A stretch of DNA of 64,000 nucleotides from Candidatus Iainarchaeum sp. (lineage in GTDB: Archaea > Iainarchaeota > Iainarchaeia > Iainarchaeales > DTGL01). The stretch covers positions 1 to 64,000 of the forward strand of contig JAOAJX010000003.1 in assembly GCA_026413945.1 (NCBI GenBank), given 5' to 3'. Of the stretch, positions 435 through 25,043 are shown piece by piece. The notes beneath the pieces are model-generated. The model was not told the origin of the DNA. It made no database searches and saw only the letters and a program-made list of their open reading frames with translations. A program made the translations under genes and the position numbers. Positions within the stretch are counted from its first letter, which is position 1; each line of letters opens with the position of its first letter.

Positions 435-824
435 TTGAAGGCACAGGCCTCTGTTGAATTTATGGTTCTTCTTTCGTTTTTGTTAGTGATTTTTGTTTTT
501 TCAATTTCCATAGCGACAGGCCAGCATGAGGTTTTTCTTAGTTCAAAAAAGACCAGCGAAGCAAAGCTTCTCGCAAGAACGCTTGCATCAGAAATAAATG
601 CTGTTTTTCTTGCTGGAAATGGCGCTGAAAAGTCGCTCTTTCTCAGGAATTTTGGCGATTATAATGTTGCTTTTGGCAAGCACAGGGTTTTCGTTGAATG
701 GGGTGGCTCATATGTTAGCGAGTTTATAATAGCCAATGATGTTAATGCGCCCTCCGCAATGCAGGGCAAAGAGCTTCTCTTAAAAAACATAAGCGGAGGA
801 GTTAAAATTGAGGTCAAGCAATGA
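435..824 (+). CDS. Class III signal peptide pilin-like protein
   Basis: The product of 129 residues starts M-K-A-Q-A-S-V-E-F and continues directly into a hydrophobic helix of about 20 residues. This is the archaeal class III signal peptide: prepilin peptidase cuts before the glutamine, and Glu sits at mature position 5. The TTG at 435 is chosen because AAGGTGG (421-427) lies 7 bases upstream; an in-frame TTG at 393 would add residues with no such site and would bury the signal. The remainder is a small polar domain without cysteines. It is the first of four overlapping or abutting pilin-like genes ahead of a secretion ATPase. Probably a pilin or minor pilin subunit of a type IV pilus-like system. 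Confidence 0.75.
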   Translation: MKAQASVEFMVLLSFLLVIFVFSISIATGQHEVFLSSKKTSEAKLLARTLASEINAVFLAGNGAEKSLFLRNFGDYNVAFGKHRVFVEWGGSYVSEFIIANDVNAPSAMQGKELLLKNISGGVKIEVKQ

Positions 825-1311
825 AAAAGGCCAGCTTTTCACCACGGATTTTGTTTTTGCTTCAGCAATGTTTTTGGCAGCGCTTATTATTGTTTACGGC
901 TATTCGAACTTGGCTTCCATGCGAATTAACGAATTACAAATAATTCAGGATAGGGAATATGCTGCAAGGCGCACGGCACAAATGCTTGTTACCTCTGAAG
1001 GAATTCCTCGTAATTGGCATGCGCTTGCAGATGAAAATATAAAGTCAATAGGCTTTGCTTTAGAGCCAAACATACTTTCAGAAGAAAAGATAAAGCGCTT
1101 CAAAAAGCTTTCTGACGAGAATTATGCCTTCCTAAGAGACATATTGGGGCTGCAAAAATATGGCATCTCGATTAAGGTTATTTCAACTTCAGGCAATACT
1201 CTTTATTCAGTCGGCCCACAAAAAACGCAGGAGTCAGCGATTGCAAAGGTTAGCAGGGCAGGCCTTTTGAACAATGCCATTGTTTTCCTCGATGTGGAGG
1301 TTTTCGAGTGA
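808..1311 (+). CDS. Pilin-like protein with shifted acidic residue
   Basis: Product of 167 residues with a TTG start at 808, supported by GGAGG at 796-800. The start overlaps the previous gene by 17 bases. The amino terminus has K-G at residues 7-8, then Q-L-F-T-T-D and a hydrophobic helix. This looks like a type IV prepilin cleavage site, but the acidic residue falls at mature position 6 (Asp) instead of Glu5. The rest is a soluble helical or mixed domain. The gene at 13119-13580 has the same layout (R-G-M-L-F-A-L-D), suggesting paralogues. Likely a minor pilin made with its neighbours by coupled translation; the exact role is unknown. Confidence 0.65.
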   Translation: MRSSNEKGQLFTTDFVFASAMFLAALIIVYGYSNLASMRINELQIIQDREYAARRTAQMLVTSEGIPRNWHALADENIKSIGFALEPNILSEEKIKRFKKLSDENYAFLRDILGLQKYGISIKVISTSGNTLYSVGPQKTQESAIAKVSRAGLLNNAIVFLDVEVFE

Positions 1312-1721
1312 AAGGCTTTATTTTGTCCATGGATGCTTTATTCTCACTTACTGTTCTCATAATACTCCTCGGCATAGTAACCTTTTATTTTTCAGGCATG
1401 AGCTTTGGAGCTTTTCAAAGCACTGCTTTATATGATTTTGCTTCAGATCTCGGCGCAGCTCTTGAGAAAGGCGGATATTTTGAGAAAGCCATCGACGAAA
1501 ATGAGATGACTGAGCTTAGCACAATACTTAATGTTTCTCCGCAGAAGCTTTGCCTTGAACTCAGGATTTACAGCTCTGAAGACATCAACTCAGTGCTTTT
1601 CAGTACCTACAAAGTTGGCTGTGTTTCAAAATATTCTGAAAGGGCTTCATATAAGAGAAGCTTCTTCTCGAATAAGGCAGGTAAGGCATACCTTGCAGAG
1701 GTGCTTGCCTGGTACAGGTGA
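1308..1721 (+). CDS. Pilin-like protein (KGFILSMD type)
   Basis: Product of 137 residues. The GTG start at 1308 is preceded by GGAGG at 1296-1300 and overlaps the previous stop codon by 4 bases. It begins M-K-G-F-I-L-S-M-D-A-L and runs into a single amino-terminal membrane helix followed by a soluble domain with two cysteines. The K-G pair followed by Asp at position 6 is shared with the protein encoded at 12773-13135 (K-G-Y-I-F-T-M-D), so these are probably paralogous pseudopilins. Cleavage by an archaeal prepilin peptidase after Gly is plausible but unproven. No family name can be assigned beyond type IV pilin-like. Confidence 0.65.
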   Translation: MKGFILSMDALFSLTVLIILLGIVTFYFSGMSFGAFQSTALYDFASDLGAALEKGGYFEKAIDENEMTELSTILNVSPQKLCLELRIYSSEDINSVLFSTYKVGCVSKYSERASYKRSFFSNKAGKAYLAEVLAWYR

Positions 1722-1725
1722 TTTT

Positions 1726-2614: not shown

Positions 2615-4522
2615 TTGAGGAAAAAGGAAATAAAAAAAAGCCAGGAGGAAGAACCAAGCATTATTCTTCCACTGAAGCCAAAAGAAGAATCGTCAACAGA
2701 AGAAAAACCTCACGTTACTCTAACCCATCAACTTGAAACGAAAGAGCAAAAGAAAAAGAATTACTCTGAGAACATGCGCGAGCTCATCACCACGCCGGTT
2801 GACTCTTTAATTGATATTCTCAAGGTTAAAAAAACCGCATCCTTAAATGAACTTTCAGCTAAGTTAGGCCTTAGCATTGATGCCGTTGAAAGCATAGGCA
2901 GAATTCTTGAGAGATCCAGCGTTGTGAAGCTTATTTACCCAACTTCGGTTATAAAGCGCCCAAAAATTGTGCTTCTCACCCTTATAACTGAACAAAAAAT
3001 CTTTACATTTGATGGCAAAAAAGTTGAGGAAAAAAAGCTTTTAGTTGATAATGTGCCGGTTCTCGTTGAAATAGTGCGTTCCAATGAAGATCGTATGCTT
3101 TACTACAACCTACTTCCGCCAACCTTCAGGCCTTATACAAAAATCTTTCTTGAGGAAATAAAGAACAAGATTGTTGAGCACGTGCCTGTTGAGGTTTCCG
3201 AGATAACAGATACTAAGAAAAGCATAGAACTTAAGAAAAGATACTTTGATGAAGCCAAAAAGGTTCTCCGAGAATACTTTGGCTCAGATACTACACTTCA
3301 GGACATCCTTGCAGGTTTGCTGCTGCATGAGATGTATGGCCTTGGCATAATTGAGCTAATAATGGGTGACAATGATCTCGAAGAGGTTGCAATAAACTCT
3401 TCTAAAACACAAATTACTGTTTACCACAAAGAATATGGCTGGATGAGGACAAACATCATGCCAATTTCCGAAGAAGCAATAGCTAACTATGCTTCCCAAA
3501 TTGCAAGAAAGGTTGGCAGGGAAATAACAACACTAAATCCTTTGTTAGATGCGCACATAATCACTGGCGACAGAGTGCATGCTTCTTTATTCCCAATATC
3601 CTCTTTTGGAAATACAATAACAATAAGGCGTTTTGCTAGAAGGCCTTGGACTATAGTTGATTTAATTGGCGTAAGGCATACGCTCAGCATAGAAATGGCA
3701 TCTTTGCTTTGGCTCGCCATGCAATACGAGATGAGCATGCTTGTTGCAGGTGGCACTGCTTCAGGAAAGACTGCTATGCTCAATGCACTTTGCGTTTTCA
3801 TGCCACCATATCATAGAATTATTTCAATAGAAGATGTTCGGGAAATAATGCTTCCAAGCTACCTCCAGTGGAATTGGGTGCCAATGACAACAAGAAACCC
3901 AAACCCAGAAGGGCTCGGAGAAGTTAAGATGCTTGACTTGATGCATGCCTCGCTTAGAATGAGACCTGATCGAATAATCCTCGGCGAAATAAGAAAAAAG
4001 AAGGAAGCAGAGGTTTTATTTGAAGCGTTGCACACAGGCCATAGTGTTTACAGCACACTACACGCAAACTCAGGTCAACAGGTGCTAAGGCGTTTGCTTG
4101 AGCCACCAATATCATTACCACCGCTTGAAGTTGAAGGCCTTGATCTTATCCTTGTGCAGTACAGGGACAGAAAAACTAACAGAAGGCGCAGCTATGAGAT
4201 CTGCGAGATTGAAACAGGAACAACAGGAGCACAATTGCGCATAAACACAATATTCAAATGGTCTCCGAGGACTGACAAATGGGATATGCTTAACAAGCCC
4301 ACAAAACTTGTAGGAAACATTAACTTGCACACAGGCCTGACAGAGCAAGAGATTGCTGAAGACCTTGATGGGAGAGCTCATATTTTGGAATGGATGTTAA
4401 ACCACAATATAAGCGACATAAACCAAGTTGGAAACATAATGAAAGCATTTTACGCTAACCCCGAAGAGATTTTAGAGGCAGCGAAGCAGAATAAAAAACC
4501 AGCAATTTTTTTGGAGGCGTAA
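2615..4522 (+). CDS. Type II/IV secretion system ATPase (TadA/GspE/ArlI family), locus 1
   Basis: Product of 635 residues; the TTG start at 2615 has AAAAGGTG at 2601-2608. The first 50 residues are charged and probably disordered. Residues about 60-115 look like a winged helix-turn-helix. The ATPase core follows, with Walker A G-G-T-A-S-G-K-T at 379-386, a Walker B-like R-I-I-L-G-E-I near 452, and a histidine box T-G-H-S...T-L-H-A-N near 475. These are the hallmarks of the PilT/VirB11-like ATPases that power pilus assembly or archaellum rotation in the cytoplasm. It directly precedes two membrane platform genes with which it should form the motor. It differs from the second ATPase (20944) in its amino-terminal region. 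Confidence 0.93.
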   Translation: MRKKEIKKSQEEEPSIILPLKPKEESSTEEKPHVTLTHQLETKEQKKKNYSENMRELITTPVDSLIDILKVKKTASLNELSAKLGLSIDAVESIGRILERSSVVKLIYPTSVIKRPKIVLLTLITEQKIFTFDGKKVEEKKLLVDNVPVLVEIVRSNEDRMLYYNLLPPTFRPYTKIFLEEIKNKIVEHVPVEVSEITDTKKSIELKKRYFDEAKKVLREYFGSDTTLQDILAGLLLHEMYGLGIIELIMGDNDLEEVAINSSKTQITVYHKEYGWMRTNIMPISEEAIANYASQIARKVGREITTLNPLLDAHIITGDRVHASLFPISSFGNTITIRRFARRPWTIVDLIGVRHTLSIEMASLLWLAMQYEMSMLVAGGTASGKTAMLNALCVFMPPYHRIISIEDVREIMLPSYLQWNWVPMTTRNPNPEGLGEVKMLDLMHASLRMRPDRIILGEIRKKKEAEVLFEALHTGHSVYSTLHANSGQQVLRRLLEPPISLPPLEVEGLDLILVQYRDRKTNRRRSYEICEIETGTTGAQLRINTIFKWSPRTDKWDMLNKPTKLVGNINLHTGLTEQEIAEDLDGRAHILEWMLNHNISDINQVGNIMKAFYANPEEILEAAKQNKKPAIFLEA

Positions 4523-4523: not shown

Positions 4524-5414
4524 ATGCGTGTAAAGTTCATGCTTTTCTCGATTGAGCGCGCAAACAGGATTAATAGGCGTTTTCTATGGATTGGTGAAAA
4601 GCTCAGCGACCTTTTTTATTCCCTCAAATATGATTTGCACCTTGCTGGCATCAAAATTGATCCAGAAAAATATTTGACCGCGGCTTTTTTTTCCGCACTC
4701 ACTTATTTTGCAATATTCTTTGCACTTTTTTCAGCACTCTTCTTTGCAAGATCGCAGCAGCTTGATGGCTCATTGTTTCTAAATGCACTTTTCTTTGGAC
4801 TCATCTTTGGTTTTGTATTCTTTTTATTGCATGTTTTCTACCCGCGAATAATAGCAAAAAACCTCGCAAGAACTATTGATAACAACCTCCTTTTTGCAGT
4901 AAAATCCATGTATGTCCAAGTTTGCTCAGGTATAAGCCTTTATAACACCTTGGTTTACGTTGCAAAGTCCGGTTATGTTGGTGTCTCAGAAGAATTTGAA
5001 TATGTTGTGAAAGAGATCAATTCCGGTGAGTCAGAGGCAAAAGCACTTGAAAAAATGGCTATAAAGACGAGCTCTGAGCATCTCAAAAAAACCTGTTGGC
5101 AGCTGCTTAGTGCAATAAGAAGCGGTGCCTCTGTTAAAGGTGCTTTGCAATCAATTGTTGCAATGCTTGTAAAAGAGCAAGAAAGAGCAATTAGAGACTA
5201 TTCCTCTGAACTTAATGTTTGGGTTTTAATGTATATGCTATTCGCAGCAGCAATACCAAGCTTAGGCCTTACCTTCATAGTGATACTTTCTTCACTTGCG
5301 GGTGCTTCAATAGGCCAACACACAATCGTATTTATAATAATGGTTTCATTTGCGATACAGCTCTCTATAATCGGCTTTGTTAAAAGTCGTATTCCGAAGG
5401 TGTTTTTAACTTGA
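4524..5414 (+). CDS. Type IV pilus platform protein, TadC/GspF-like (first of two)
   Basis: Product of 296 residues; the ATG at 4524 follows GGAGG and sits 1 base after the ATPase stop. There is a paired hydrophobic segment at about residues 50-115 and another near 235-290, separated by a cytoplasmic helical region containing the G-I-S-L-Y-N-T-L and A-L-E-K-M-A stretches typical of GspF/TadC domains. The family sits in the membrane under the pilus and is driven by the TadA-type ATPase. In locus 1 the two platform halves are separate genes; in locus 2 they are fused. Confidence 0.85.
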   Translation: MRVKFMLFSIERANRINRRFLWIGEKLSDLFYSLKYDLHLAGIKIDPEKYLTAAFFSALTYFAIFFALFSALFFARSQQLDGSLFLNALFFGLIFGFVFFLLHVFYPRIIAKNLARTIDNNLLFAVKSMYVQVCSGISLYNTLVYVAKSGYVGVSEEFEYVVKEINSGESEAKALEKMAIKTSSEHLKKTCWQLLSAIRSGASVKGALQSIVAMLVKEQERAIRDYSSELNVWVLMYMLFAAAIPSLGLTFIVILSSLAGASIGQHTIVFIIMVSFAIQLSIIGFVKSRIPKVFLT

Positions 5415-6463
5415 ATGGAAATATTTCAAAATCCATTGAGCGCCTATACAAGAGGATTTGCTTAGGTCTAAGCCGAACTATTCCTCTAAAAACTAGGCAA
5501 AGGGTATTATATCAAATGCTAACTTATGCAGGAATAAAAGGCGACTTCGACTTTTACATTGGGAGAAAGCTCTTTCTTGCAATACTTCTATCACTTATCT
5601 CCTTCCTTTTACCCATAACTGTTTTGAGCGGGATTTTTTTAACAATGTTTCCGCATGAGCTTATCTACCCAACCGCTTTGCTTATTGGCATAATTTCCTT
5701 TTGCATCATAGCAGTTATATATCAATTAATGCTATATTATAAGATAGATTCAAGGGCAAACCTCGTTGACAAAATTCTGCCAGATTTCCTCCTTCTTGTA
5801 TCAAATAACATAAGGGCAGGCATGGTGCCTTTTTTCGCATTTAGGAGTGCGGCAAGAGAAGAATTTGGCCCTTTAGCTGAAGAAATCAAAATTGCCACTT
5901 CAAAATCACTTGGTACTGAATCATTTACTGAAGCTCTAAAGACACTTTCTGAGAGGATTGATTCAGAGAATCTTAAGCAAATGGTGCCTTTCATGATACA
6001 ATCACTTCGTGCTGGGGGCAAAATTGCTGAGCTTCTTGAGACCTCTGCAGAAGATATGAGAGAGACGCAAGAACTTAAAAAGGCACTTATATCCGGCACA
6101 AAAATGTACGAGATGTTTCTCCTTTTCATCGTTGTTATCATGACACCTTTGCTTCTTTCCGTTTCCGTTATTTTCCTCGAACTTCTTTCCAATATGCAGA
6201 CAGATATAGCACGAGACACAAGCGGTTCATTTAATCTTGGCTTTCTTTCTTCAAGCATAAGCATTCAGCCGGCTTTTATGAATATTGCAGCATACCTGCT
6301 AATATTTGGAAATTCGCTCTTTGCAGGTGCATTCATAGGTGTGATTTCAAGAGGCAAGGCAAAATTTGGCCTTAAATATTTCCCTGCAATATTTTTGGTT
6401 TCAGCAGTGATTTTCTTCTTCGCAAGAATTTTCCTTAGAGGCCTTCTTTTAGCATCGTATTAG
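5411..6463 (+). CDS. Type IV pilus platform protein, TadC/GspF-like (second of two)
   Basis: Product of 350 residues. The TTG start at 5411 overlaps the previous stop by 4 bases, with AAGGTG at 5397-5402. It has paired membrane helices near residues 50-115 and two or three near 230-350, around a cytoplasmic domain with the typical G-M-V-P-F-F-A-F and S-L-R-A-G-G-K-I-A-E-L-L stretches of the GspF/TadC fold. With the preceding gene and the ATPase it forms the core of pilus machine 1. Its 3' end overlaps the convergent KaiC-like gene by 4 bases. Confidence 0.85.
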   Translation: MNGNISKSIERLYKRICLGLSRTIPLKTRQRVLYQMLTYAGIKGDFDFYIGRKLFLAILLSLISFLLPITVLSGIFLTMFPHELIYPTALLIGIISFCIIAVIYQLMLYYKIDSRANLVDKILPDFLLLVSNNIRAGMVPFFAFRSAAREEFGPLAEEIKIATSKSLGTESFTEALKTLSERIDSENLKQMVPFMIQSLRAGGKIAELLETSAEDMRETQELKKALISGTKMYEMFLLFIVVIMTPLLLSVSVIFLELLSNMQTDIARDTSGSFNLGFLSSSISIQPAFMNIAAYLLIFGNSLFAGAFIGVISRGKAKFGLKYFPAIFLVSAVIFFFARIFLRGLLLASY

Positions 6464-7014
6464 AGCTTTATAACCTTGTCCACAATTATAGAGATCTTGT
6501 TTATAAGCTCAGCTTCAGCTTCTTCCTCAATAGATATTAAGGCCATTGATATGCCCCAATTCCTTGCTTGGTTTATTATGAAATGAGTAAACTTAGCGAT
6601 TGTGCTTATGTCGTTGTGTATCGTGAGTGTAGTCAAGCTATCCACAAAAAGCATTTTGCTTTTTTCAGGCATATTCTTTACAAAATTCGTTATTGCTATG
6701 CTCATGTTTGTAAGATCTCTGGGTGTCTCAAGAAAAATAACCTTTTCAATCCTCTGTGGCGAAGAAACCCTTCCAGAAACGCAGTCAATATACCAAATCT
6801 TTTCGGTTTTTACTTTTGCGTTTTCTAGTATCTTATTTACAAGACGTGCCGGCTTGTTTGCTGCGACATATATGCAGCCCATCTTATTCATGTTTATGAA
6901 ATAATAAAGAATTTCATTATTTATATCAACGTAGTCTTTGGCAGGCACTATAAATAACGTTATCTGGTCTTCAGCTATTGAAGAAAAGTCGATCTTTTTT
7001 GCCACCAAAACCAC
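6460..7014 (-). CDS. Degenerate KaiC/RecA-fold protein lacking Walker A
   Basis: Product of 184 residues. The overall pattern resembles KaiC/RadA-like proteins (DUF835/DUF7504-like): an I-Y-V-A-A-N-K-P strand, W-Y-I-D-C-V-S-G, a Walker B-like M-L-F-V-D-S-L-T-T-L near residue 120, and a final I-S-I-I-V-D-K-V-I-K-L strand. The place of the P-loop reads F-I-V-P-A-K-D-Y with no G-K-S/T, so ATP hydrolysis is unlikely. The GTG at 7014 is used; an in-frame GTG at 7005 is also possible. It lies tail-to-tail with the second platform gene of pilus machine 1 and 3 bases after two small membrane protein genes. A regulatory role analogous to ArlH/FlaH is conceivable but unproven. Confidence 0.6.
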   Translation of the reverse strand: MVLVAKKIDFSSIAEDQITLFIVPAKDYVDINNEILYYFINMNKMGCIYVAANKPARLVNKILENAKVKTEKIWYIDCVSGRVSSPQRIEKVIFLETPRDLTNMSIAITNFVKNMPEKSKMLFVDSLTTLTIHNDISTIAKFTHFIINQARNWGISMALISIEEEAEAELINKISIIVDKVIKL

Positions 7015-7017
7015 GAC

Positions 7018-7332
7018 TTATTTCCACTTCTTTATGTCTTTATTAATCCATAGCAAAGTCCAGATAATGCCCAAAGCAGCAATTGCATCAAGAAAAAGTG
7101 CACTGTACAAAACAAACTGTTCTTGCATAGAACTTGCCACTTTGCCAAAGTGTTGATAAATGTAAGTTAGCTCTATGATTGCAATTAACACATATATAAA
7201 GCTTATTGAAATTAAAAGTTCTAACTCTTTCAGTTTGGCAAACCTAGCGACTATTATTGAATGAAAAAAAGCTATTAAGAAAACCCCGAGCTTTATGCTG
7301 GCCATAAGTGAAAATAACATCGGCTCAATCAT
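7018..7332 (-). CDS. Small membrane protein, unknown
   Basis: Product of 104 residues with three or four predicted membrane helices and a positively charged end (I-N-K-D-I-K-K-W-K). The ATG at 7332 is preceded by GGAGGAGTG and overlaps the upstream stop as ATGA, so the two small membrane proteins are translationally coupled; a longer reading upstream would only overlap that gene. No motif was recognised. Its position between a second membrane protein and the KaiC-like gene suggests a three-gene operon, perhaps a membrane sensor or anchor for the KaiC-like protein. Confidence 0.6.
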   Translation of the reverse strand: MIEPMLFSLMASIKLGVFLIAFFHSIIVARFAKLKELELLISISFIYVLIAIIELTYIYQHFGKVASSMQEQFVLYSALFLDAIAALGIIWTLLWINKDIKKWK

Positions 7333-7649
7333 TTGCACTCCTCCCAGCCACGGGTTACATAGCTCGTGTGGTAGAATTGATACAAAGTTGCAACAAACAT
7401 CATGCCTGCAAGAATATATAATATTTCTATGCTGACCCAAAGCTCCGGTGCACCGATTATAGTGTAAGAGATACCATAGATGCTCAAAAATAGCTTTATT
7501 ATGTTCAGCACTGTGAAAAGACCCACAGTTGATATTAAATATGGCAAGGCCATTGAAAAGCCGCCACCGTACAATTTCCTACATATCGCAAGCGCTATAA
7601 CGAAAGCCAGAACATAAAGGAGTGCCACAAATGCGTGCAAAAGAATCAT
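7329..7649 (-). CDS. Small membrane protein, unknown
   Basis: Product of 106 residues with about three hydrophobic helices and G-G-G-F near the end of the first loop. The ATG at 7649 is chosen because a TATA-like GATTATAAAG (7678-7687, minus strand) sits about 30 bases upstream, leaving almost no leader; a TTG at 7658 is the alternative. It is coupled by an ATGA overlap to the next membrane protein. No catalytic motif or recognised family. First gene of the small operon that ends with the KaiC-like protein. Confidence 0.6.
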   Translation of the reverse strand: MILLHAFVALLYVLAFVIALAICRKLYGGGFSMALPYLISTVGLFTVLNIIKLFLSIYGISYTIIGAPELWVSIEILYILAGMMFVATLYQFYHTSYVTRGWEECK

Positions 7650-7701
7650 AGATATCAAAAATATATTGTTTGAACTGCTTTATAATCTTTATCTGGGCTT
7701 T

Positions 7702-8508: not shown

Positions 8509-8602
8509 AAGATCACGCTCTGCTAAATTATATTAGCCTGCTTACCAATAAAAACAAAGCGCTTTTTTTGCAAAATTTAATTGAAAATTGAAAGAGCAAG
8601 TA

Positions 8603-8611
8603 TTTTAAATA
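8603..8611 (+). promoter_or_regulatory. TATA box of the major pilin gene
   Basis: TTTTAAATA lies about 55 bases before the ATG at 8661. A start site near 8632 would give a leader of about 30 bases ending in the strong AAGGAGGT site at 8647-8654. A box this close to consensus together with a near-perfect Shine-Dalgarno fits a highly expressed structural protein. Confidence 0.55.
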
Positions 8612-8660
8612 TAGACGCATCAATAAATATTACTTAAACTATACTTAAGGAGGTAATTTG

Positions 8661-9107: not shown

Positions 9108-9129
9108 ACCTTAAGAGTTAGTTTAATGT

Positions 9130-13932: not shown

Positions 13933-13933
13933 G

Positions 13934-16355: not shown

Positions 16356-16592
16356 ATGCGAGACAAAAGGCCCGAGCTTAGCGATGAAGAGATTGCGTTG
16401 AGAATAATAAAGCTTTATTTTGAAGAGATTGCTAGGATTGGAATAAAGAGGAATTTTACTCTTGACTCTATACTGAATGCATATTTTTACACTTTGCATA
16501 AACTAAAAAACAAAAAGAGCGAGATTGCAAGGGTCTGTAAAATGGTTCAGGAAGAGCTTACCGAACAATCAACAAAAGGGCAAAACACTTAG
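16356..16592 (+). CDS. Small helical protein, unknown
   Basis: Product of 78 residues, predicted all-helical and charged, with I-I-K-L-Y-F-E-E-I-A-R-I-G-I-K and a Lys-rich second half. The ATG at 16356 has an excellent AAGGAGG site (16343-16349) and follows orc1/cdc6 by 12 bases, so it is probably co-transcribed with it. No family was recognised. Its stop codon lies inside a hairpin shared with the convergent YchF gene. Confidence 0.65.
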   Translation: MRDKRPELSDEEIALRIIKLYFEEIARIGIKRNFTLDSILNAYFYTLHKLKNKKSEIARVCKMVQEELTEQSTKGQNT

Positions 16593-16598
16593 TGTTTT
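16582..16598. terminator. Bidirectional hairpin across two stop codons
   Basis: AAAACAC (16582-16588) and GTGTTTT (16592-16598) pair around TTA. The TAG of the upstream gene (16590-16592) is in the loop and stem, and the TAA of the convergent YchF gene begins at 16600-16598. T tracts follow in both directions. With only 5 bases between the genes this probably ends both transcripts. Confidence 0.5.
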
Positions 16599-17779
16599 TA
16601 CCTTGCAATTATTTTAACAATGTCACCACTTTTAAGTTCAGTATCTTTGCCTATCTTTTGTCCAGTTTTACAATTTATAGCCGCAACAAAAGAATTACCA
16701 ATGCTTGTGTGAACTTTGTAAGCAAGCTCAATTGCAGTGGAACCTTTTTTTAGTAACATTGCGTCAGGAAGCACATTGCCTTTAGAATCAGAAAGCTTTG
16801 CCTGGTCTTCCACTGGAAAAACAACAATCATCCCAAGAACGTCAAAAGCAACCTTGTTAAGAACCTGCTGTACTCCAGTGCCCCCAAATCTTTTTAGAAT
16901 ATTTTCTCTTATAAACTCGAGAGCCGCCTTCTGTTTTTCAGGAATTTCTTTAAGAATCTTAAATTCAGATTCACCAGGGACATATTCTATAATACCTTGC
17001 TCTGAAGCCTTTCTCAAAGCCAGTTCAGCTTCAGCAGAAACCGGCATTATTGTCTCATCAGGAAATTTTTCCTTTAACTTTCTTATGTTTTCTTCAGATT
17101 CCTTAATGTCTGCCTTGTTTGCTGCAATTATCATTGGTTTGCTCTTCTGTCTTAAAAGCTCTGCAAACTCGAGCTTAAGCTCCTCGTTCCAATCGCATAT
17201 TCTTTGTCCCGAGTTTATTTCTATAAGGCATTTTTTTATATAGTCTTCGCTTATCCCAAGGCCGCTTATCTGCTTTGCAAGAACACTGGCCGCTAATTCA
17301 TTTTTCACATGCCTTAGATTTGGCCATGCTCTATCTATTATGCCTTTTATCCAGTATTGCATCTCTTTTTTTAGAAAAATAACAGTCTCTTCTGGGTTAA
17401 ATTTTCCCACACCAACAACATTTCCGTGCGTATCTGTTGAGCCACTCGCATCTAAAACATGTATCAAGCCGTCTGCAACCATTATATCGTTTAGGAACTG
17501 GTTGCCAAGACCTTTTCCTTGCCAAGCATCAGGCACCAATCCCGCTACATCCCATACCTTTATTGGCACAAAGCGCCAACCATTTTTGCAATAACCGTGC
17601 ACAGGACTACACTTCTGACCTATCTCAGAGTGAGGGCATTTAACCTTGACATACGCAACACCTTGGTTAGGCTTTATAGTTACAAAAGGCCTGTTGCCAG
17701 TTTCAGCATTGCATAGTGTTAAAGCGTTGAAGAATGTACTCTTTCCAGAATTTGGTGCTCCAACAATGCCTATCTCCAT
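16598..17779 (-). CDS. ychF: OBG-family GTPase YchF with TGS domain
   Basis: Product of 393 residues. G1 motif G-A-P-N-S-G-K-S-T at 7-15, switch region T-I-K-P-N-Q-G, G3 D-V-A-G-L-V-P near 75, and an N-K-A-D G4 motif near 243. A TGS domain at the end reads A-Y-K-V-H-T-S-I-G and finishes S-G-D-I-V-K-I-I-A-R. The archaeal type has an insert with two C-containing segments after switch I. The family binds ribosomes and hydrolyses ATP or GTP. Start ATG 17779 puts the P-loop at the expected position; there is no Shine-Dalgarno, and a TATA-like CTTATTTTATG about 30 bases upstream suggests leaderless translation. Confidence 0.93.
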   Translation of the reverse strand: MEIGIVGAPNSGKSTFFNALTLCNAETGNRPFVTIKPNQGVAYVKVKCPHSEIGQKCSPVHGYCKNGWRFVPIKVWDVAGLVPDAWQGKGLGNQFLNDIMVADGLIHVLDASGSTDTHGNVVGVGKFNPEETVIFLKKEMQYWIKGIIDRAWPNLRHVKNELAASVLAKQISGLGISEDYIKKCLIEINSGQRICDWNEELKLEFAELLRQKSKPMIIAANKADIKESEENIRKLKEKFPDETIMPVSAEAELALRKASEQGIIEYVPGESEFKILKEIPEKQKAALEFIRENILKRFGGTGVQQVLNKVAFDVLGMIVVFPVEDQAKLSDSKGNVLPDAMLLKKGSTAIELAYKVHTSIGNSFVAAINCKTGQKIGKDTELKSGDIVKIIAR

Positions 17780-17823
17780 AAAAAATAGCTTAAGGCAAAA
17801 CACATAAAATAAGTGCTGCGTAT

Positions 17824-18228
17824 TTATTGAGTCCAAATTGTAAGAAACTGCGCTTTCTCAAAGATTATATGATTGAAATCCTCTAGCTTAAAGCTTACAT
17901 GAAAATCAGGCCCACAGAGAAGCTTTACACACCGCCTTATGCTTCTATTTTCCATGCATGCAGAATCCTTGTTGAAATCAATCTTGCCCTCTTCTATTAC
18001 TGGGTTGTGGTAAAATAACAAGTAATTAGAGTCGCAATTTTCATTAATCCTTGAAGCAATCTGCATTAAATCATTATCCATCTTCTCAAAAAGCATCTGC
18101 GCGCTAAAAAAATTCTGCAAGAACCAGAACAAAGCTATGCCACAGGCAAGAGCAACGCCTATGTAAATCATAACTTGAATCGAGATACTCCCTTTATGAA
18201 ATCCTTTATTAAGTGCCTCTGCATTCAA
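17824..18228 (-). CDS. Pilin-like protein (HKGSISIQ)
   Basis: Product of 134 residues. H-K-G-S-I-S-I-Q-V-M-I-Y-I near residues 11-23 leads into a hydrophobic helix, so Gln replaces the usual Glu5. The soluble part has four cysteines. TTG at 18228 is preceded by GAGGTTG and overlaps the upstream stop by 20 bases. Last of four co-directed genes, each with one amino-terminal helix and several cysteines, running away from pilus locus 2. Likely minor pilin. Confidence 0.6.
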   Translation of the reverse strand: MNAEALNKGFHKGSISIQVMIYIGVALACGIALFWFLQNFFSAQMLFEKMDNDLMQIASRINENCDSNYLLFYHNPVIEEGKIDFNKDSACMENRSIRRCVKLLCGPDFHVSFKLEDFNHIIFEKAQFLTIWTQ

Positions 18229-18619
18229 TTGCTACAACCTCTATATCTTTTTTTTCAAATATGCACTTGAAATTATGTATATCGTAAGCTTTTATTATGT
18301 CTGGCTCATTAAGGTTAAGCTCTGCAGCATTCACATCACATTTGCAGTGCTCACAATTTTTTATATTCTTGTAATCAACGCAGATTCCTTTTCCATGGCC
18401 ACTTACAACTGCACCTGATGAAATTTCGATCTCTTTGCTTAATCGCGTTTCAACCTCTGAGTTGCATACAAAATTGCACCACTGTGCAAAAGCTTTTACC
18501 GCATTCTCATTTGTTTTTATCTTTGTTTGCTCTCTGTTGTTCTCAACCATTGTGAGCAGTATTCCCATGGCCAAGAAAACTGTTATTATTCCAAAAACTA
18601 CCCAAACAGCATTTTCCAT
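18209..18619 (-). CDS. Pilin-like protein, cysteine-rich
   Basis: Product of 136 residues starting M-E-N-A-V-W-V-V-F-G-I and a hydrophobic helix within the first 25 residues. The leader is too short for a classical signal. The outside domain holds seven or so cysteines, including C-E-H-C-K-C. ATG at 18619 with GGTAGGG just upstream; a TTG at 18631 is possible. It fits the set by size, topology and cysteine content. Function unknown, presumably pilus-associated. Confidence 0.58.
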   Translation of the reverse strand: MENAVWVVFGIITVFLAMGILLTMVENNREQTKIKTNENAVKAFAQWCNFVCNSEVETRLSKEIEISSGAVVSGHGKGICVDYKNIKNCEHCKCDVNAAELNLNEPDIIKAYDIHNFKCIFEKKDIEVVAIECRGT

Positions 18620-18640
18620 TTTCCCTACCAATGACTTTTT

Positions 18641-19201
18641 TTAGCAGACAACTTCATCGTCGCTTGCTTTCCCATCGCGGTTTTTGTCAAAGACCATTGT
18701 AAACCAGTGGTTCGGCTGGTTTTTTGGATCTGAGTAACATTCCCCTGGCTGTATAAACTTTTTTAGGTTTGCGCTTGATTGCTCAGTAGACAAGCCTTGC
18801 ATCTGCCAGTAGTTGCACATTAAGCTCTTGCAAGCGTTCATTTTCAGCAAAGCACCATCAACTTCACAATCAATCAACACAGGACAAGGTATTCGGTTTT
18901 CACAAATACCTATTCCTGCTAATAGGCTTTCATCATAGTCATTCTTTAGTTGGTTCTTTGTTAGGTCTACACCTTGTGTAAAAACATGCTTGCAGAAATT
19001 TACCTTTCCGCTAATGTCTTTTGCCTTAATGCATAAGCTTTGGCATTCTTGCTTCCATTCATCAACGGTTTTCTTTTCGAGTTCACCGCCAACCTTTACT
19101 ACCTGTTGCGAAACCATTTGCAATACAAGCATTGCTACAGCCAAAAGCACAAACAGAATTATAAAAACCTGTATTGCCATTTCCATTCCTTTCTCACTCA
19201 T
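18641..19201 (-). CDS. Pilin-like protein with C-terminal EF-hand loop
   Basis: Product of 186 residues. M-S-E-K-G-M-E-M-A-I-Q-V-F precedes a hydrophobic helix, a K-G site without Glu5. The outside domain carries about ten cysteines and ends D-K-N-R-D-G-K-A-S-D-D-E followed by V-V-C. That twelve-residue loop fits the EF-hand/dockerin calcium pattern (acidic or Asn at 1, 3, 5; Gly at 6; Glu at 12), with Ala instead of a large aliphatic at position 8. ATG at 19201 follows GAGGTGAGG and overlaps the upstream stop. Possibly a calcium-stabilised minor pilin or tip protein. Confidence 0.65.
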   Translation of the reverse strand: MSEKGMEMAIQVFIILFVLLAVAMLVLQMVSQQVVKVGGELEKKTVDEWKQECQSLCIKAKDISGKVNFCKHVFTQGVDLTKNQLKNDYDESLLAGIGICENRIPCPVLIDCEVDGALLKMNACKSLMCNYWQMQGLSTEQSSANLKKFIQPGECYSDPKNQPNHWFTMVFDKNRDGKASDDEVVC

Positions 19202-19596
19202 ACCCTCACCTCCACTTTACTGCTTGGGTAATTCCAGAATATTGTTATGCTTCTTGTAGTGCCACTATCTATATGATATTTGTTAGAGTCAATTCCAGGC
19301 ATCTCTTTTGCAATCTCCGAAGCATCTACTGTTATTGGATTTTCAACTGTTATAGCATAGCAAGTATAATATTCCATTTTTGGTTTTGCATTCATTTCTT
19401 CATAACAGGACTTTAAGAGCTTGCCGATCTGCGAGTTTGTTATGCTTATTTGTTGAATGACTTTAGTATCTGTGCTTCTAGTCTGTGTCCATTGAAGTTC
19501 TAGTCCTGAAAGCCAACCTTGGCTTAATGCCAAAAGCATGGCACCTACTGCCAGAGCCACAAAAATTGTTATAATCACAGATATAGGAAGCTCCAT
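19198..19596 (-). CDS. Pilin-like protein, first of a four-gene set
   Basis: Product of 132 residues: M-E-L-P-I-S-V-I-I-T-I-F and a hydrophobic helix in the first 25 residues, then a beta-rich domain with two cysteines. A TATA-like ATTTAAATA (19634-19642, minus strand) and GAGGGTTG precede the ATG at 19596. It overlaps the next gene as ATGA. It heads the set that is divergent from pilus locus 2, 128 bases between the start codons, suggesting coordinate expression. Confidence 0.6.
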   Translation of the reverse strand: MELPISVIITIFVALAVGAMLLALSQGWLSGLELQWTQTRSTDTKVIQQISITNSQIGKLLKSCYEEMNAKPKMEYYTCYAITVENPITVDASEIAKEMPGIDSNKYHIDSGTTRSITIFWNYPSSKVEVRV

Positions 19597-19682
19597 TTTT
19601 CAACCCTCGCTTATACCTTATTGCTATTTTTGTATTTAAATTTATCCTTAATCAAGGTTGTCAGGAAAAGCTCAAGAAAACA

Positions 19683-19690
19683 TTTATATA
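19683..19690 (+). promoter_or_regulatory. TATA box of pilus locus 2
   Basis: TTTATATA lies 35 bases before the ATG at 19725, so the transcript should begin near 19713 with AGGGA in a very short leader. It is the only clear promoter upstream of the coiled-coil, ATPase and platform genes. Confidence 0.5.
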
Positions 19691-19724
19691 TGGGCAAGCA
19701 CTAAAGATAAGAATAGGGATTGTT

Positions 19725-20354
19725 ATGGACCCAAAGATTGAATCCGTTAAGAATAAGATTGGCGGTGTTGAAAGCTCTCTTGCAATTATATCGCAATCAA
19801 AGCAGAAAAATCTCTCAGAAGTAAATGCCAATCTGAACTTTCTAGTTGGACAACTCGAGAATTTGCGTGTTGAGCTTGATAATCTGGACAAGACAATAGT
19901 GCTTGGCTCACCGCTCACAGAATATAGTGAAAATGTTGAGAAACTCACCTCCATCGAAGAAACAATAAACAGCGTTGAATCAAAGTTCGAATTGGCAATT
20001 GAAAAAATAGCCGAAATCAGAAAGGATCAGGAAGTTCTGAAAAACCTTTTACAGGAAGGTATCTCCGAAAAACAGGTCCAACTTCTTGAATCAAGAATAA
20101 AAAATATTGAAGAGCTTCAAGAGAAACTCATGAGCTCAAAATCAACAAAAATACTTGTAGAGCTTGTGGAAATAATAGATGAGCTTAATCACAGATTAAA
20201 AAGAATAGAAGAGCTTTTCAAGATAGGCAAGATTTCAGAGGCACAAGTAACGCAATATTCACCTCAGTACTCACTGCCTTATCCACAGCAGCCAGTGCCA
20301 CAGCAACAGCCTTCAAAGCCAGTTGGTGGACTTAAATGGATTTTTAAGCGTTAA
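19725..20354 (+). CDS. Cytoplasmic coiled-coil protein of pilus locus 2
   Basis: Product of 209 residues. Residues 1-165 are almost entirely heptad-like coiled coil with no membrane segment. Residues about 170-198 are rich in Pro, Gln, Tyr and Ser. The end is basic, K-W-I-F-K-R. First gene of the second pilus operon, 5 bases before another coiled-coil gene. Archaellum operons place cytoplasmic coiled-coil proteins (ArlC/D/E) before the ATPase in a similar way; this is an analogy of position and shape only, no sequence family was recognised. Confidence 0.65.
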   Translation: MDPKIESVKNKIGGVESSLAIISQSKQKNLSEVNANLNFLVGQLENLRVELDNLDKTIVLGSPLTEYSENVEKLTSIEETINSVESKFELAIEKIAEIRKDQEVLKNLLQEGISEKQVQLLESRIKNIEELQEKLMSSKSTKILVELVEIIDELNHRLKRIEELFKIGKISEAQVTQYSPQYSLPYPQQPVPQQQPSKPVGGLKWIFKR

Positions 20355-20359
20355 AGTGA

Positions 20360-20944
20360 ATGAAAATGTCAGATGAGAAAGCAAGGGTAAAATTTTATAA
20401 TCCCAATATCGCAGACTTTGAGCATGTAAGGTTCGATGGCGACCCCATGGTTCTAGAGAAGTGCAGATACATAAGTGCCCAAGTTATTATGCAAAAAGCA
20501 AGGCTTGAAAAGTTAAGAAACGCAATAATCTCAGGAACATCATACTCTGCCATGGAAGTTGAATCTAAGATAAACGAACTTAGCAAGAGAGCAGAAATAC
20601 TTGCTTCAAAATCAAACCTAATATCAACTTCTATAGAAGAATTAGAAGCTGCTGAAAACGATCTAAAAAAACGTGCCTTGTCAGGTGAATTATTACAAAG
20701 GTATACTGCTGTCAGAGAGCAAATAATTCAAATTGAAAAAACATTTGGCGGCCTTGCATCAATACGCGCACCAGATCTCTTTGAATCCATGATGCACGAC
20801 CTTGAAAACATGAACGCAAGGGTAAGGAAAATTGAAGATATCGTGGGAGCAACCGTTGACATTGCTTTAAAAGACCGCTTGGAGCGTGCAAAGAGATATA
20901 TTGATTATTATGGCAAAGAGATTTCTGAAAGAGGTGCACCTTAA
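20360..20944 (+). CDS. Coiled-coil protein preceding the second pilus ATPase
   Basis: Product of 194 residues: a 35-residue amino terminus with K-F-Y-N-P-N-I-A-D-F, then long charged helices predicted as coiled coil, no membrane segment and one cysteine near residue 35. It overlaps the ATPase start by 1 base (TAATG), so translation is coupled. Probably a cytoplasmic partner of the motor; no family was recognised. ATG at 20366 is an alternative start. Confidence 0.65.
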   Translation: MKMSDEKARVKFYNPNIADFEHVRFDGDPMVLEKCRYISAQVIMQKARLEKLRNAIISGTSYSAMEVESKINELSKRAEILASKSNLISTSIEELEAAENDLKKRALSGELLQRYTAVREQIIQIEKTFGGLASIRAPDLFESMMHDLENMNARVRKIEDIVGATVDIALKDRLERAKRYIDYYGKEISERGAP

Positions 20945-22608
20945 TGAAATATATTATCAAAGATTGTAGCAATTGCATAGGCCTCGGAGATAAAAGTTTT
21001 CCAATGTGTGCGCAATGTATCAAGCCACAGAAAGATCTAGAGTTGATAGTTTATAAAAACAAAATTTTTACAAAGCAACAATATCTCAAGGATAATTCTT
21101 ATGTCATATACCCATTTTTTGTTGATTGTCTAATAAAGCCAATTCGCGGCAAAGTGCTCAAGTCTTACAAGATAAAAGATGCGAATGTTAAAATAGTTCA
21201 AGAAGAAGAAAACTTAGAACCAACCTATACTATAACAATACCACATTTGGAGCCAAACATGGAACAGTTACTTTACCTTTATAGGGAATATGAGAGCCAC
21301 GAACTTAAAGATCCTCTTCTTGTGCGTTGGATAAAACAGCATGGCATTCTTGACTATCTTATGTGTGATCCTAAAGTGCAGGAGATAAATATAAACCCAC
21401 CGGAATTTCAAAGCCCTTTTAGAATTGTACATGATGATTTTGATGAGTGCAGGACAAATCTTTATCCTTCAATCGACTTCTTGAATTACCTTGCAACTTA
21501 TTTGAAAATAAACTCTGGTAGGCCTCTTAATAAGGCACAGCCACAGCTTGACGCAGAACTTATCGTTGAAAACCAACGCGCAAGGGTTGCTGCTGTAGTG
21601 CAGCCATTTTCAATTCATGGCATTGGCTATTCAATAAGGCGCCATAGGGAAAAGCCATGGACATTGCCTCTTTTCATAGCTAACAAAACCATAAGCCCAC
21701 TTTTCGCCGGTTTCATGTCATTCATGATCACACATGGAAGAACATTTCTAACAGCTGGGCCTCGTGGCTCCGGAAAAACTTCCTTGCTAAGCGCATGTAT
21801 GCTTGAAATACTTCCAAAGTATAGAATTATAACAATCGAAGATACGCAAGAGCTCCCGATCAACTTCTACAAAGAATATGGCTATGACATACTTTCTTTC
21901 AAGGTTCGCTCAGCATTATCACCTGAAGGCCTTGAGATACCTTTTGAGAAAGGTCTTAGAACATGCTTAAGATTAGGCAATTCATGCTTAATACTTGGCG
22001 AAGTTCGTTCGCAAGAAGCAAAAGTTCTTTACGAAGCGATGCGTGTTGGCGCAATGGCTAATACAGTGGCAGGAACAATACATGCAGACAATCCATATGG
22101 TGTTTTTGACCGTGTTGTTAATGACTTAGGTGTGCCAAAAGGCTCGTTCAAGGTCACAGACTTGATTATAATAATAAAGCAGATTAAATCTCCAACCGGT
22201 CTTTATCATGTTAGGCGTGTTACTCAGGTTGTTGAAGTGCTAAAAGACTGGCAAGATGAGCCAGTTTTCAGAACACTCATGACCTACGACAAAAAAGAAG
22301 ATTCTTTGGTTCCGACACAAGCATTGATTAAAGGAAATTCAGTTACGATTCAGAACATAATGGAAACAAGTATGGAATATGACTCTTATGATAAGGTTTG
22401 GCGCGATATCACGTTGAGAGCCTGGGCAAAGCAGCGCTTTGTTGAGACACTCTCCGTTTTCAAAGAAAAGCTTGAAGGCCCATATGTGCTCAAAGCAAAC
22501 AAATGGTTTGCTGAAGCATTTGAAAAAATAAAGCCATTGCAAAGTGAAGAAGCAGAAAATAAGTTTAAGGAAGAGTATGAGAAACGTCTGCAATTGCTTT
22601 GGAAGTGA
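20944..22608 (+). CDS. Type II/IV secretion system ATPase with N-terminal Cys4 motif, locus 2
   Basis: Product of 554 residues. It opens with C8-x2-C11-x10-C22-x2-C25, a probable zinc-binding knuckle not seen in the locus 1 ATPase. The ATPase core has Walker A G-P-R-G-S-G-K-T at 272-279, the Asp-box I-I-T-I-E-D-T-Q-E-L near 300, Walker B S-C-L-I-L-G-E-V-R near 345, and a histidine box G-T-I-H-A-D-N near 380. It lacks the long charged amino-terminal tail of the other ATPase. It powers the second pilus-like machine together with the fused platform encoded next. ATG at 20944 overlaps the previous stop. Confidence 0.92.
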   Translation: MKYIIKDCSNCIGLGDKSFPMCAQCIKPQKDLELIVYKNKIFTKQQYLKDNSYVIYPFFVDCLIKPIRGKVLKSYKIKDANVKIVQEEENLEPTYTITIPHLEPNMEQLLYLYREYESHELKDPLLVRWIKQHGILDYLMCDPKVQEININPPEFQSPFRIVHDDFDECRTNLYPSIDFLNYLATYLKINSGRPLNKAQPQLDAELIVENQRARVAAVVQPFSIHGIGYSIRRHREKPWTLPLFIANKTISPLFAGFMSFMITHGRTFLTAGPRGSGKTSLLSACMLEILPKYRIITIEDTQELPINFYKEYGYDILSFKVRSALSPEGLEIPFEKGLRTCLRLGNSCLILGEVRSQEAKVLYEAMRVGAMANTVAGTIHADNPYGVFDRVVNDLGVPKGSFKVTDLIIIIKQIKSPTGLYHVRRVTQVVEVLKDWQDEPVFRTLMTYDKKEDSLVPTQALIKGNSVTIQNIMETSMEYDSYDKVWRDITLRAWAKQRFVETLSVFKEKLEGPYVLKANKWFAEAFEKIKPLQSEEAENKFKEEYEKRLQLLWK

Positions 22609-22630
22609 GTTTATTATAGGATGATTAGCA

Positions 22631-24523
22631 ATGTATTTTGATTTTGTTTATAATACTGGAAAGAAAATAAAAATTTTTCCTAAGTCCTCATCTCTTGAAA
22701 ATAAGTTCAAACAAGTCGAATTTCCGTATACTTCAGCGGAGTTTCTTTCAGGGATATTCATTTGGTTTATCATACCTGCTTTTGTTGGAATCTTCTTTTT
22801 TATCATCGGTGCAGCTTCAAAACTTTGGCTTTTTGAGCTTTTTGGATATATTTTCATTTTCACATCAGTTCTTCTTGCAATATCATCTTATCTTTATGGC
22901 GCAAGCATATACTACACCCAAGGCATCATACAACAAAAAGAAGAGATGCTACAAGCATTACTTGAGATGGCGAATTATATAAGCCTAAATACAAGCATAG
23001 AGTTTGCCTTTACTGAGACAGCAAAAGGCCTTACAGGAGTTCTCGGTAAGCAATTTAAGAACATAGTGACAAAATTAGAGCTTCAGCAGTATGCTACACT
23101 TGGTGATGCATTTGAGGATTACATTCCTGTATGGATGGAAATAAATCCCGATTTTGTAAAAGGCCTTACAATTCTTCAGACCGCAAGCTTGGCACCCCTA
23201 AGCGAAAGAGACAACATGCTGAAAGAAGGCATAAAGACAATAATGCAGGGTTATTACACGATGGGCAAGAGAACAACAGAAACGCTTTCAAATCAAGCAA
23301 AGAATCTAGTTTCAGTTGGAGTTATGCTGCCAATGATGTCATTAATACTTTTGCCAATGATGTCAATATTTTTGCCAAACATGATAAATGTCCCTTTGCT
23401 AATATTCATTTATGATATTCTTTGCCCCGCCTTGCTATTGCTGTTTGCAATGAACTTTGCTCTCAATCGTGTGCAAGTAAACACAATTGATTTGTCTTTG
23501 TCCCCTAAATTCAAAAAGATGCCGCAAACAATATACCTATTGTGTATATTGGTTGCGATTATTGTTACCGCATTTGGCTTTAGCCACCTTTTTACAATCG
23601 ACATGAGTTCAAAAGAAGGCATAGAAAGAGAATATAAACTTGAGAGTTTGCTGTATGTATGGCTAATTCCTCTCGGAATCTTTTTAGCAGTTGAGTTATA
23701 TCTTTTTTGTTATATCAAGCTCAATGAAAAAATATGGCTTGAAATGCGCGAAGTTGAAGATGATATACCACACCTTCTTCAGGTGGTTAGTAGTTACCTT
23801 GTCCTTAACAGACCTATGGAAAGCATAATCGAGGATGTAAAAGAAGATTACATTAGGCATGGCTTTAAGAGGCATGCTGTTGTTAAAATATTTAGTGAAA
23901 TAACTGATGCACTTTACAATACAAAGAAGACGCTTATTGATTTTGTAAACACTACTCTGCCAGAAATAGTTGCTTCGAAACGTCTCATCCAGATATTTAG
24001 GCGCTTAATACATTTCTCAGAAACAGATATAAAAAATGCAGCAAAGGCAGCAAAGATGATAAGAAGCCACACCCTTTCAATCTTCAGACTTGATAATTAT
24101 ATGCAGACGCTTCTGAGCGATACAAGTGCAACCATCGAATTATCAGGTAAAATACTCGCCCCAATACTCGCGGCAACCGCAATAATAATGGCAGTAGCAA
24201 TTGTGATGGCTTTGGAATATATAATAGGACTTATTGAAGGTGTTGGAAAAGCTTTTGGTATACAAATTTCTTTGCAGCTTGTTGATGTTTCAGCCATAAT
24301 ACCACCAACTGTTGTTTTGGTTATAGTTGGCATATACTTAATACTTACAATGATAGTTTTGAGCTTATTTCTCGCAAATGTTAAATATGGTACAGATCGC
24401 TACAAAATAGGTAAGACAATCTTCAATAATCTACTTGTCGGCTTTTTGATATTCAGTGCGCTTTTCTTTATTGGTGTTATGTTGTTTACAACCTTTATAT
24501 TTAAGGGGGTGCTTGTAAAATGA
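22631..24523 (+). CDS. Fused double TadC/GspF-like platform protein
   Basis: Product of 630 residues with two consecutive platform units: helices near 45-95 and 220-285, then again near 300-320, 335-360, 520-560 and 570-625, with two cytoplasmic helical regions between. Its length equals the sum of the two separate platform proteins of locus 1 (296 and 350 residues), so this is a fusion of the same pair. Conserved-looking stretches include L-L-E-M-A-N-Y-I-S-L-N-T-S and P-H-L-L-Q-V-V-S-S-Y-L. It would form the membrane base for machine 2. ATG at 22631; the stop overlaps a 30-residue peptide gene. Confidence 0.85.
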   Translation: MYFDFVYNTGKKIKIFPKSSSLENKFKQVEFPYTSAEFLSGIFIWFIIPAFVGIFFFIIGAASKLWLFELFGYIFIFTSVLLAISSYLYGASIYYTQGIIQQKEEMLQALLEMANYISLNTSIEFAFTETAKGLTGVLGKQFKNIVTKLELQQYATLGDAFEDYIPVWMEINPDFVKGLTILQTASLAPLSERDNMLKEGIKTIMQGYYTMGKRTTETLSNQAKNLVSVGVMLPMMSLILLPMMSIFLPNMINVPLLIFIYDILCPALLLLFAMNFALNRVQVNTIDLSLSPKFKKMPQTIYLLCILVAIIVTAFGFSHLFTIDMSSKEGIEREYKLESLLYVWLIPLGIFLAVELYLFCYIKLNEKIWLEMREVEDDIPHLLQVVSSYLVLNRPMESIIEDVKEDYIRHGFKRHAVVKIFSEITDALYNTKKTLIDFVNTTLPEIVASKRLIQIFRRLIHFSETDIKNAAKAAKMIRSHTLSIFRLDNYMQTLLSDTSATIELSGKILAPILAATAIIMAVAIVMALEYIIGLIEGVGKAFGIQISLQLVDVSAIIPPTVVLVIVGIYLILTMIVLSLFLANVKYGTDRYKIGKTIFNNLLVGFLIFSALFFIGVMLFTTFIFKGVLVK

Positions 24524-24612
24524 GCAAGACAAGCTGGCAAATAATTGAGGTTATATTGGGCCTTGCCGCAATAGGTATCATACTTATGTATGTTTTTTCA
24601 GCATTGAAGTAG
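24520..24612 (+). CDS. 30-residue single-helix membrane peptide
   Basis: The ATG at 24520 overlaps the platform stop as ATGA, and the frame runs M-S-K-T-S-W-Q-I-I-E-V-I followed by a hydrophobic stretch to S-A-L-K and TAG. The platform gene's last codons hold AAGGGGGTG at the right distance (24503-24511). The peptide is one membrane helix with Glu near the start, similar to a bare class III pilin helix without a leader. The next gene begins 8 bases later. Its coupling to both neighbours argues that it is translated. Confidence 0.6.
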   Translation: MSKTSWQIIEVILGLAAIGIILMYVFSALK

Positions 24613-24620
24613 GTGTTTTT

Positions 24621-25043
24621 ATGCAAGCGATAGAAGTTGTAATATTTTTTATTTTTGCCTTTTCAGTAGGTATGCTGGTGTTAGCATATATTGTGGGCAT
24701 TGATTTCACAGGTCTCCAAAAATCAATCACTTGCCTTTTCATACCTGATAGCTGCAAAGAAGCAATCCATAGCATTCAATATCAGCAGTTTTTCATTGAA
24801 ATTTCTAAATGCTGGAGATCATGTGCTTTCGGAGCCAGGGATGTCAATTGTGGGGTTTACAATGTAAAAACCGAAAAAGTAACGGGCGAAACATTTGACC
24901 TGAATGCTTTAAGAGCATACTTTAAAAAGAACAAGGTTTGTGAGGATTGCAACATACTTATAAAGAATGAGCCATTGGTTTTTCCAGCAATTGTTGAGCT
25001 TTCATGCTCAGATGACCTAAACAGCATATTTATTTCAAACTGA
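24621..25043 (+). CDS. Pilin-like cysteine-rich protein of locus 2
   Basis: Product of 140 residues: M-Q-A-I-E-V-V-I-F and a hydrophobic helix in the first 27 residues, then an outside domain with about eight cysteines (S-K-C-W-R-S-C, V-C-E-D-C among them). ATG at 24621 follows AGGTG. Same architecture as the four minus-strand proteins at 17824-19596. Last gene before the AT-rich gap that precedes the surface-protein genes. Likely minor pilin or pilus accessory protein. Confidence 0.62.
   Translation: MQAIEVVIFFIFAFSVGMLVLAYIVGIDFTGLQKSITCLFIPDSCKEAIHSIQYQQFFIEISKCWRSCAFGARDVNCGVYNVKTEKVTGETFDLNALRAYFKKNKVCEDCNILIKNEPLVFPAIVELSCSDDLNSIFISN

Follow-up and report, generated by a model that had tools for sequence, protein, structure and literature searches.

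Two loci in the window, the 64,000-nucleotide stretch of DNA analysed here, probably encode separate machines for the assembly of archaeal type IV filaments, and in the second (locus 2) a vWA-PKD protein would serve as the contact part. The window opens contig C15 in the assembly of a Candidatus Diapherotrites archaeon, a member of a DPANN lineage, and all named relatives of its locus 2 ATPase (58-89% identity) come from Candidatus Diapherotrites MAGs. It should be noted that the assembly (948,649 bases, ~0.95 Mb) is 92% complete, and absences in this genome are therefore provisional. The presence of two distinct machines is supported by an identity of ~30% between their ATPases, the placement of these ATPases in different clades, and different distributions of the two loci. 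For both loci the gene order, lengths and motifs given in the initial annotation, which described two machines of different architecture within 25 kb, agree with the sequence and its open reading frames. Locus 2 is larger than described, a pilin cluster lying between the two is independent, and the genome encodes five more ATPases. The phrase "two machines" understates this genome, because a genome search recovered seven T2SSE-type ATPases and three A24 prepilin peptidases (PF01478, above cut-off), the latter all on contig C11. No A24 peptidase was found on C15 in the same PF01478 search, as had been stated for the window, and processing of the prepilins of both loci would fall to peptidases whose genes lie elsewhere in the genome.

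Gene content of the two loci

Locus 1 lies on the forward strand and has genes for four complete pilin-like proteins, one T2SSE ATPase and a pair of platform proteins. The contig start cuts a preceding gene of the locus, of which the C-terminal part remains (14-412, forward strand); its product resembles a 697-aa pilin-like protein encoded upstream of locus 1 in genome G005 (29% identity over 127 aa, E 1.5e-9). The four pilin-like proteins all have orthologues in G005. The first (393-824) has a class III-like N-terminus, KAQASVEFMV, and matches its G005 locus 1 orthologue with E 1e-22; the second and third (808-1311 and 1308-1721) each have a single N-terminal hydrophobic segment, and the fourth (1726-2568) likely starts at the TTG at 1726 (NKGFVVTISV) rather than at 1531. 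These are followed by the assembly ATPase (2615-4522, 635 aa, Pfam T2SSE 2.2e-32) and the platform proteins of 296 aa (4524-5414, Pfam T2SSF 4.9e-13) and 350 aa (5411-6463, T2SSF 2e-14). Convergent with the locus is a reverse-strand gene (6460-7014) for a KaiC-like protein (Pfam DUF7504, 6.9e-07) in which no Walker A was seen, and a relative of this protein is encoded near the locus 1-like operon of G016 (L158 4145-4765, E 5e-21).

Locus 2 was initially described as two coiled-coil genes, an ATPase and a single large platform. All of these genes are present, but the description was incomplete, and the locus has about 13 genes at 17824-29699. These limits are taken from G055, in which homologues of the 17824-19596 genes lie on the same strand and in series with homologues of the ATPase, the platform, the 24621 protein, the vWA protein and the 28025 product. 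In the window, four divergent pilin-like genes with G055 homologues lie on the reverse strand (17824-18228, 18209-18631, 18641-19201 and 19198-19596), and homologues of the 17824 and 18641 genes are present in G006 too. All of the remaining genes are on the forward strand. The first two encode the predicted cytoplasmic helical proteins cc1 (19725-20354, 209 aa), a relative of which precedes the ATPase in each of the six locus 2 loci, and cc2 (20360-20944, 194 aa). Judging from sequence comparison, cc2 is probably a relative of cc1, as both match one single gene in G055 and in G016. Next come the ATPase (20944-22608, 554 aa, Pfam T2SSE 2.9e-16), with a CxxC-x10-CxxC N-terminus, and the 630-aa platform (22631-24523). 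A small Cys-rich pilin-like protein (24621-25043), which begins with MQAIE and a hydrophobic helix, is kept in all six loci, head cysteines included; its model (pLDDT 71) had no fold match in the PDB.

The distal part of locus 2 encodes proteins predicted to be secreted or membrane-anchored. Hydropathy indicates a C-terminal membrane anchor in the first of these (25121-25870), which has relatives in G004 and G006. The second (25863-28034) is a surface protein with an N-terminal hydrophobic helix, a PKD domain (6e-15) and a HELGH motif. Its vWA domain falls below the Pfam cut-off, and the vWA call rests on a conserved DxSxS MIDAS motif that is kept in G004 and, as DGSSS, in G055. The HExxH motif is kept in G004 and G006, both of the same taxonomic family. 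A zincin identity was considered for the HExxH domain and rejected, since the domain has no Pfam match in the window protein and a weak Reprolysin_5 match (0.0035) appears in the G006 relative only. The locus ends with a membrane-anchored secreted protein (28025-29248; relatives in G004, G006, G016 and G055) and a predicted cytoplasmic acidic protein (29292-29699; match in G004).

The N-terminal sequences of the locus 2 pilin-like proteins have no canonical class III signal, which, together with the lack of a PDB fold match for the 24621 protein, counts against a filament model. Could locus 2 instead be a pseudopilus-type secretion machine, whose short pistons expel the vWA-PKD-HExxH protein and other products of the locus with no long filament? 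The non-canonical N-termini are in keeping with such a machine, as are the several secreted or membrane-anchored locus 2 proteins, one of them with HExxH. However, an N-terminal hydrophobic helix would keep both the vWA protein and the 28025 product anchored, and about five pilin-like genes stay together in the locus. We consider secretion unlikely, and an adhesive filament carrying the vWA protein is the likeliest function that we would assign to locus 2. The earlier proposal of one perhaps adhesive and one structural appendage is conjectural for both, and only locus 2 has an adhesin-like component, the vWA protein.

ATPases and platforms

Both ATPases possess the paired Walker A and histidine-box motifs noted at the outset: GGTASGKT (379) and TLHA (481) in locus 1, and GPRGSGKT (272) and TIHA (378) in locus 2. 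The GEIR/GEVR motif is likewise present in both. Their N-termini are of different kinds. The winged helix described for the locus 1 ATPase is supported through its relatives by HTH_24, found in the G005 orthologue (19.0 bits, under the cut-off of 21.9) and in a gene of its own that immediately precedes the G033 ATPase (23 bits, over the cut-off), but the window copy by itself gives no significant Pfam match. In the G005 orthologue (L155 5848-6250) the HTH_24 is preceded by a C2H2 zinc finger (zf-C2H2_6, over cut-off), a surprising feature in an ATPase of this kind. The locus 2 ATPase has its cysteines at positions 8, 11, 22 and 25, of which the first three are invariant in four orthologues; the fourth is displaced in the G016 and G055 orthologues. 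An order-wide Diapherotrites paralogue locus (C18, L047) encodes an ATPase with a CxxC-x11-CxxH N-terminus, and the two patterns together suggest a metal-binding module common to both.

A maximum-likelihood tree, a kind of check that the initial annotation had proposed, places the ATPases of loci 1 and 2 in different clades. The locus 2 orthologues form a monophyletic group with the order-wide paralogue (support 100) and locus 1 groups elsewhere; the rooting of this tree is to be ignored, and a long outlying branch, L016 (477 aa), reflects a wrong reading frame and lies outside the clades cited here. The core regions of the two ATPases share ~30% identity over 282 residues, so that they are not the near-identical copies that a recent duplication would leave, and such a duplication is ruled out. 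The well-supported clade of locus 2 and its paralogue has Cys-rich, probably metal-binding N-termini in common. Within the archaeal type IV filament family, this clade is a lineage-specific variant. A bolder proposal would place it in a class of its own among archaeal type IV filaments, marked by metal binding at the N-terminus of the ATPase and by a fused platform that has diverged strongly, with the vWA-PKD/zincin-like protein of locus 2 binding and cleaving partner-surface proteins at cell contacts; taken as a whole, this seems quite improbable.

Neither locus is an archaellum. Scores against the NCBIfam FlaI (ArlI) equivalog are 262 bits for locus 1 and 113 bits for locus 2, compared to a cut-off of 550, and profile searches of the 92% complete assembly gave no match to FlaD/E (PF04659) and only below-cut-off matches to archaellin (PF01917). 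The genome-wide search for a peptidase and an archaellum suggested earlier thus recovered the three A24 peptidases and no archaellum. The same results bear on the idea that locus 2 is a motility machine analogous to the archaellum, in which cc1 and cc2 replace ArlC/D/E. Predicted helical cytoplasmic proteins do adjoin its ATPase, but no ArlH was seen in locus 2, and in view of the FlaI score and the missing FlaD/E and archaellin matches we regard this idea as extremely improbable.

Both loci have a T2SSF-type inner-membrane platform, recognised by Pfam in locus 1 and through a structural model, fold comparison and profile alignments in locus 2. The 630-aa platform has no Pfam T2SSF match. Its AlphaFold2 model (pLDDT 82.8, pTM 0.76) resembles EpsF cytoplasmic-domain structures (TM 0.56-0.65 on target, Foldseek probability 0.69-0.93, E > 1), and it aligns with the platform of the order-wide paralogue over 551 columns (hhalign probability 99.2). 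The N-terminal half of the paralogue platform in turn matches the 296-aa locus 1 protein (hhalign, 94.8) and its C-terminal half the 350-aa one (63.1); a column-shuffled control scores 0.1-0.3. Direct comparison of the 630-aa protein with locus 1 is weak, but this indirect evidence supports the claim that it corresponds to both halves joined. The contrast between split and fused platforms is not new, since archaeal pili with one two-domain platform and with two single-domain platforms have both been described, the split form being attributed to gene fission (PMC6668835), and two tadC-like genes have been described for archaeal pili (PMC4858521). Here one small genome holds split and fused platforms together, along with very different ATPase N-termini.

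Distribution and history

Close locus 1 orthologues occur in 29 of the 87 genomes of the phylum and locus 2 in six, locus 1 being a common Diapherotrites type and locus 2 a rare self-contained module. Among the 29, locus 2 is found only in the window's own genome; the other five locus 2 genomes have no close locus 1 orthologue, and three of them have a more distant one. This distribution rules out an obligate pairing. It also argues against the view that loci 1 and 2 form one functional system with exchangeable parts, for which the spacing of ~11 kb (6463 to 17824) and a G033 contig carrying both a locus 1-like and a locus 2 operon could be cited; we hold that view to be very unlikely and treat the loci as two machines.

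The surroundings of locus 2 differ in G006, G016, G033 and G055 while its genes stay together, and in G004 it ends beside RFC, as in the window. In G002 and G005, RFC and an Obg-like GTPase flank only one gene, of 406/409 aa, instead of locus 2. The window lacks this gene, whose two versions are homologous (36% identical to each other); the genes around it are ordered as in the window, in G005 up to the end of a short contig. The occupant of the site is a conserved membrane gene of ~400 aa (L152 9529-10749, L153 2788-4017). Identities of the locus 2 ATPase to its counterparts in G004, G006, G033, G055 and G016 are 89, 75, 64, 61 and 58%, respectively. The corresponding values are 85, 69, 63-67 (two longer fragments), 65 and 60% for the order-wide paralogue ATPase and 85, 75, 73, 75 and 65-71% for CDC48. 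Recent horizontal spread of locus 2 is not favoured, because its divergence roughly tracks that of these two proteins; an old gain, relocation and loss would fit the sequences better than recent transfer. A scan of viral contigs found no locus 2 relatives.

Known systems, proposed roles and other filament genes

Both loci share with archaeal type IV pili a VirB11/T2SSE-type ATPase, a TadC/FlaJ-type platform and pilin-like proteins (PMC4858521), although the locus 2 platform differs in being too diverged for Pfam T2SSF. Iainarchaeum is not named in the main text of that census (Makarova et al. 2016, 168 genomes), which reported vWA, coiled-coil and Zn-ribbon accessories for archaeal pilus loci and described TadG-like vWA proteins as pilus components; DPANN loci with diverged pilins have also been noted (PMC6393860). 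Locus 1, and only locus 1, resembles Epd-like archaeal pili and bacterial Tad systems (PMC6668835) in having two contiguous single-T2SSF platform genes beside the ATPase. Its ATPase lies outside the CpaF group in our tree, which includes one Tad reference and no Epd sequence; another ATPase of this genome, on C11, groups with CpaF (support 85). No TadZ was found beside the locus 1 ATPase, and the one candidate for a TadZ or FlaH homologue there is the KaiC-like gene, with no Walker A seen, on the opposite strand. The best solved relatives of both window ATPases are Archaeoglobus GspE (2OAP) and Sulfolobus FlaI (4II7), but their N-terminal domains differ from those of the window proteins, both of which fall below the archaellum equivalog cut-off. 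The order-wide paralogue locus is like locus 2 in its Cys-containing ATPase N-terminus, fused platform and pilin-like genes of its own, but its ATPase is longer (759 aa, ~42% identical) and its pilin-like genes are different. A giant protein of >2,000 aa follows (L047 7235-19998), and several relatives have a similar layout. By domain layout, the vWA-PKD protein resembles Streptococcus sanguinis PilB, a modular pilin that owes its adhesive function to a grafted vWA domain (PMC8179133); both have an N-terminal hydrophobic helix followed by vWA, but the locus 2 protein has an extra PKD domain and the HExxH region.

On this basis, we propose that in locus 1 a hexameric winged-helix ATPase and a two-subunit membrane platform would polymerise the locus's own pilins. 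In locus 2, the fused platform may be driven by an ATPase whose N-terminus probably binds metal and is zinc-ribbon-like, cc1 and cc2 perhaps tying this ATPase to the cell interior, and the platform would assemble the small Cys-rich pilin-like subunits. The vWA-PKD protein could then be displayed on or near the filament, via its N-terminal membrane or pilin-like helix, as a contact or adhesion part. Cell contact is a requirement for those DPANN archaea that have been cultivated (PMC11291902), and ultrasmall episymbiotic Saccharibacteria are reported to have two distinct type IV pili (PMC12206443). With seven filament-type ATPases in ~0.95 Mb, and a patchily distributed module that encodes an adhesin-like protein of its own, this genome offers concrete candidates for contact organelles.

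Further pilin-like genes lie between the two loci. A stand-alone gene (KAQGTTEYLIILAV; 8658-9107, forward strand) matches Pfam Class_IIIsignal with 3.6e-04, below cut-off. The middle cluster (12364-14822) has no ATPase of its own and comprises a forward-strand pilin-like gene (12364-12771; Class_IIIsignal 5.1e-04, below cut-off), four more on the reverse strand (12773-13171, 13119-13580, 13561-13941 and 13934-14473) and a reverse-strand membrane protein (14532-14822). The class III signal looks canonical in the 8658 and 12364 proteins and in the 393 protein of locus 1, again below the Pfam cut-off. The middle cluster, including its 12364 and membrane-protein genes, is kept in the same order in G002 (L152), and a relative of the 13934 gene is present in G005. 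Since G002 has neither locus 2 nor a close locus 1 orthologue, the cluster belongs to neither locus. We would guess at a lone ATPase (C11, L042), with no platform in its neighbourhood, as a possible partner.

Two further observations concern other filament ATPases. A third pilus-type ATPase of this genome (L046 8950-10689; G000:C18:16950-18689) starts with a ferredoxin-like domain, for which Pfam Fer4 and Fer4_6 both score above cut-off; the domain contains 16 cysteines, arranged as four [4Fe-4S]-type motifs. Downstream lie genes for a split platform and for large secreted proteins. The seven orthologues examined likewise have 16 cysteines here, and ~20 genomes of the phylum match in this region. 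It would be unusual for a pilus ATPase to sense redox state, and our literature search returned nothing on such a protein. Lastly, ATPase frames of 1,250-1,835 aa occur at L057 9312-13172 (with homologues in G028, G029, G031 and G041) and at L088 10155-14762. In the paralogue ATPases the match to the query breaks near the Asp box (TIEDT), and in a locus 1-like ATPase it breaks around residues 406-438; these long frames of filament ATPases thus probably contain inteins.
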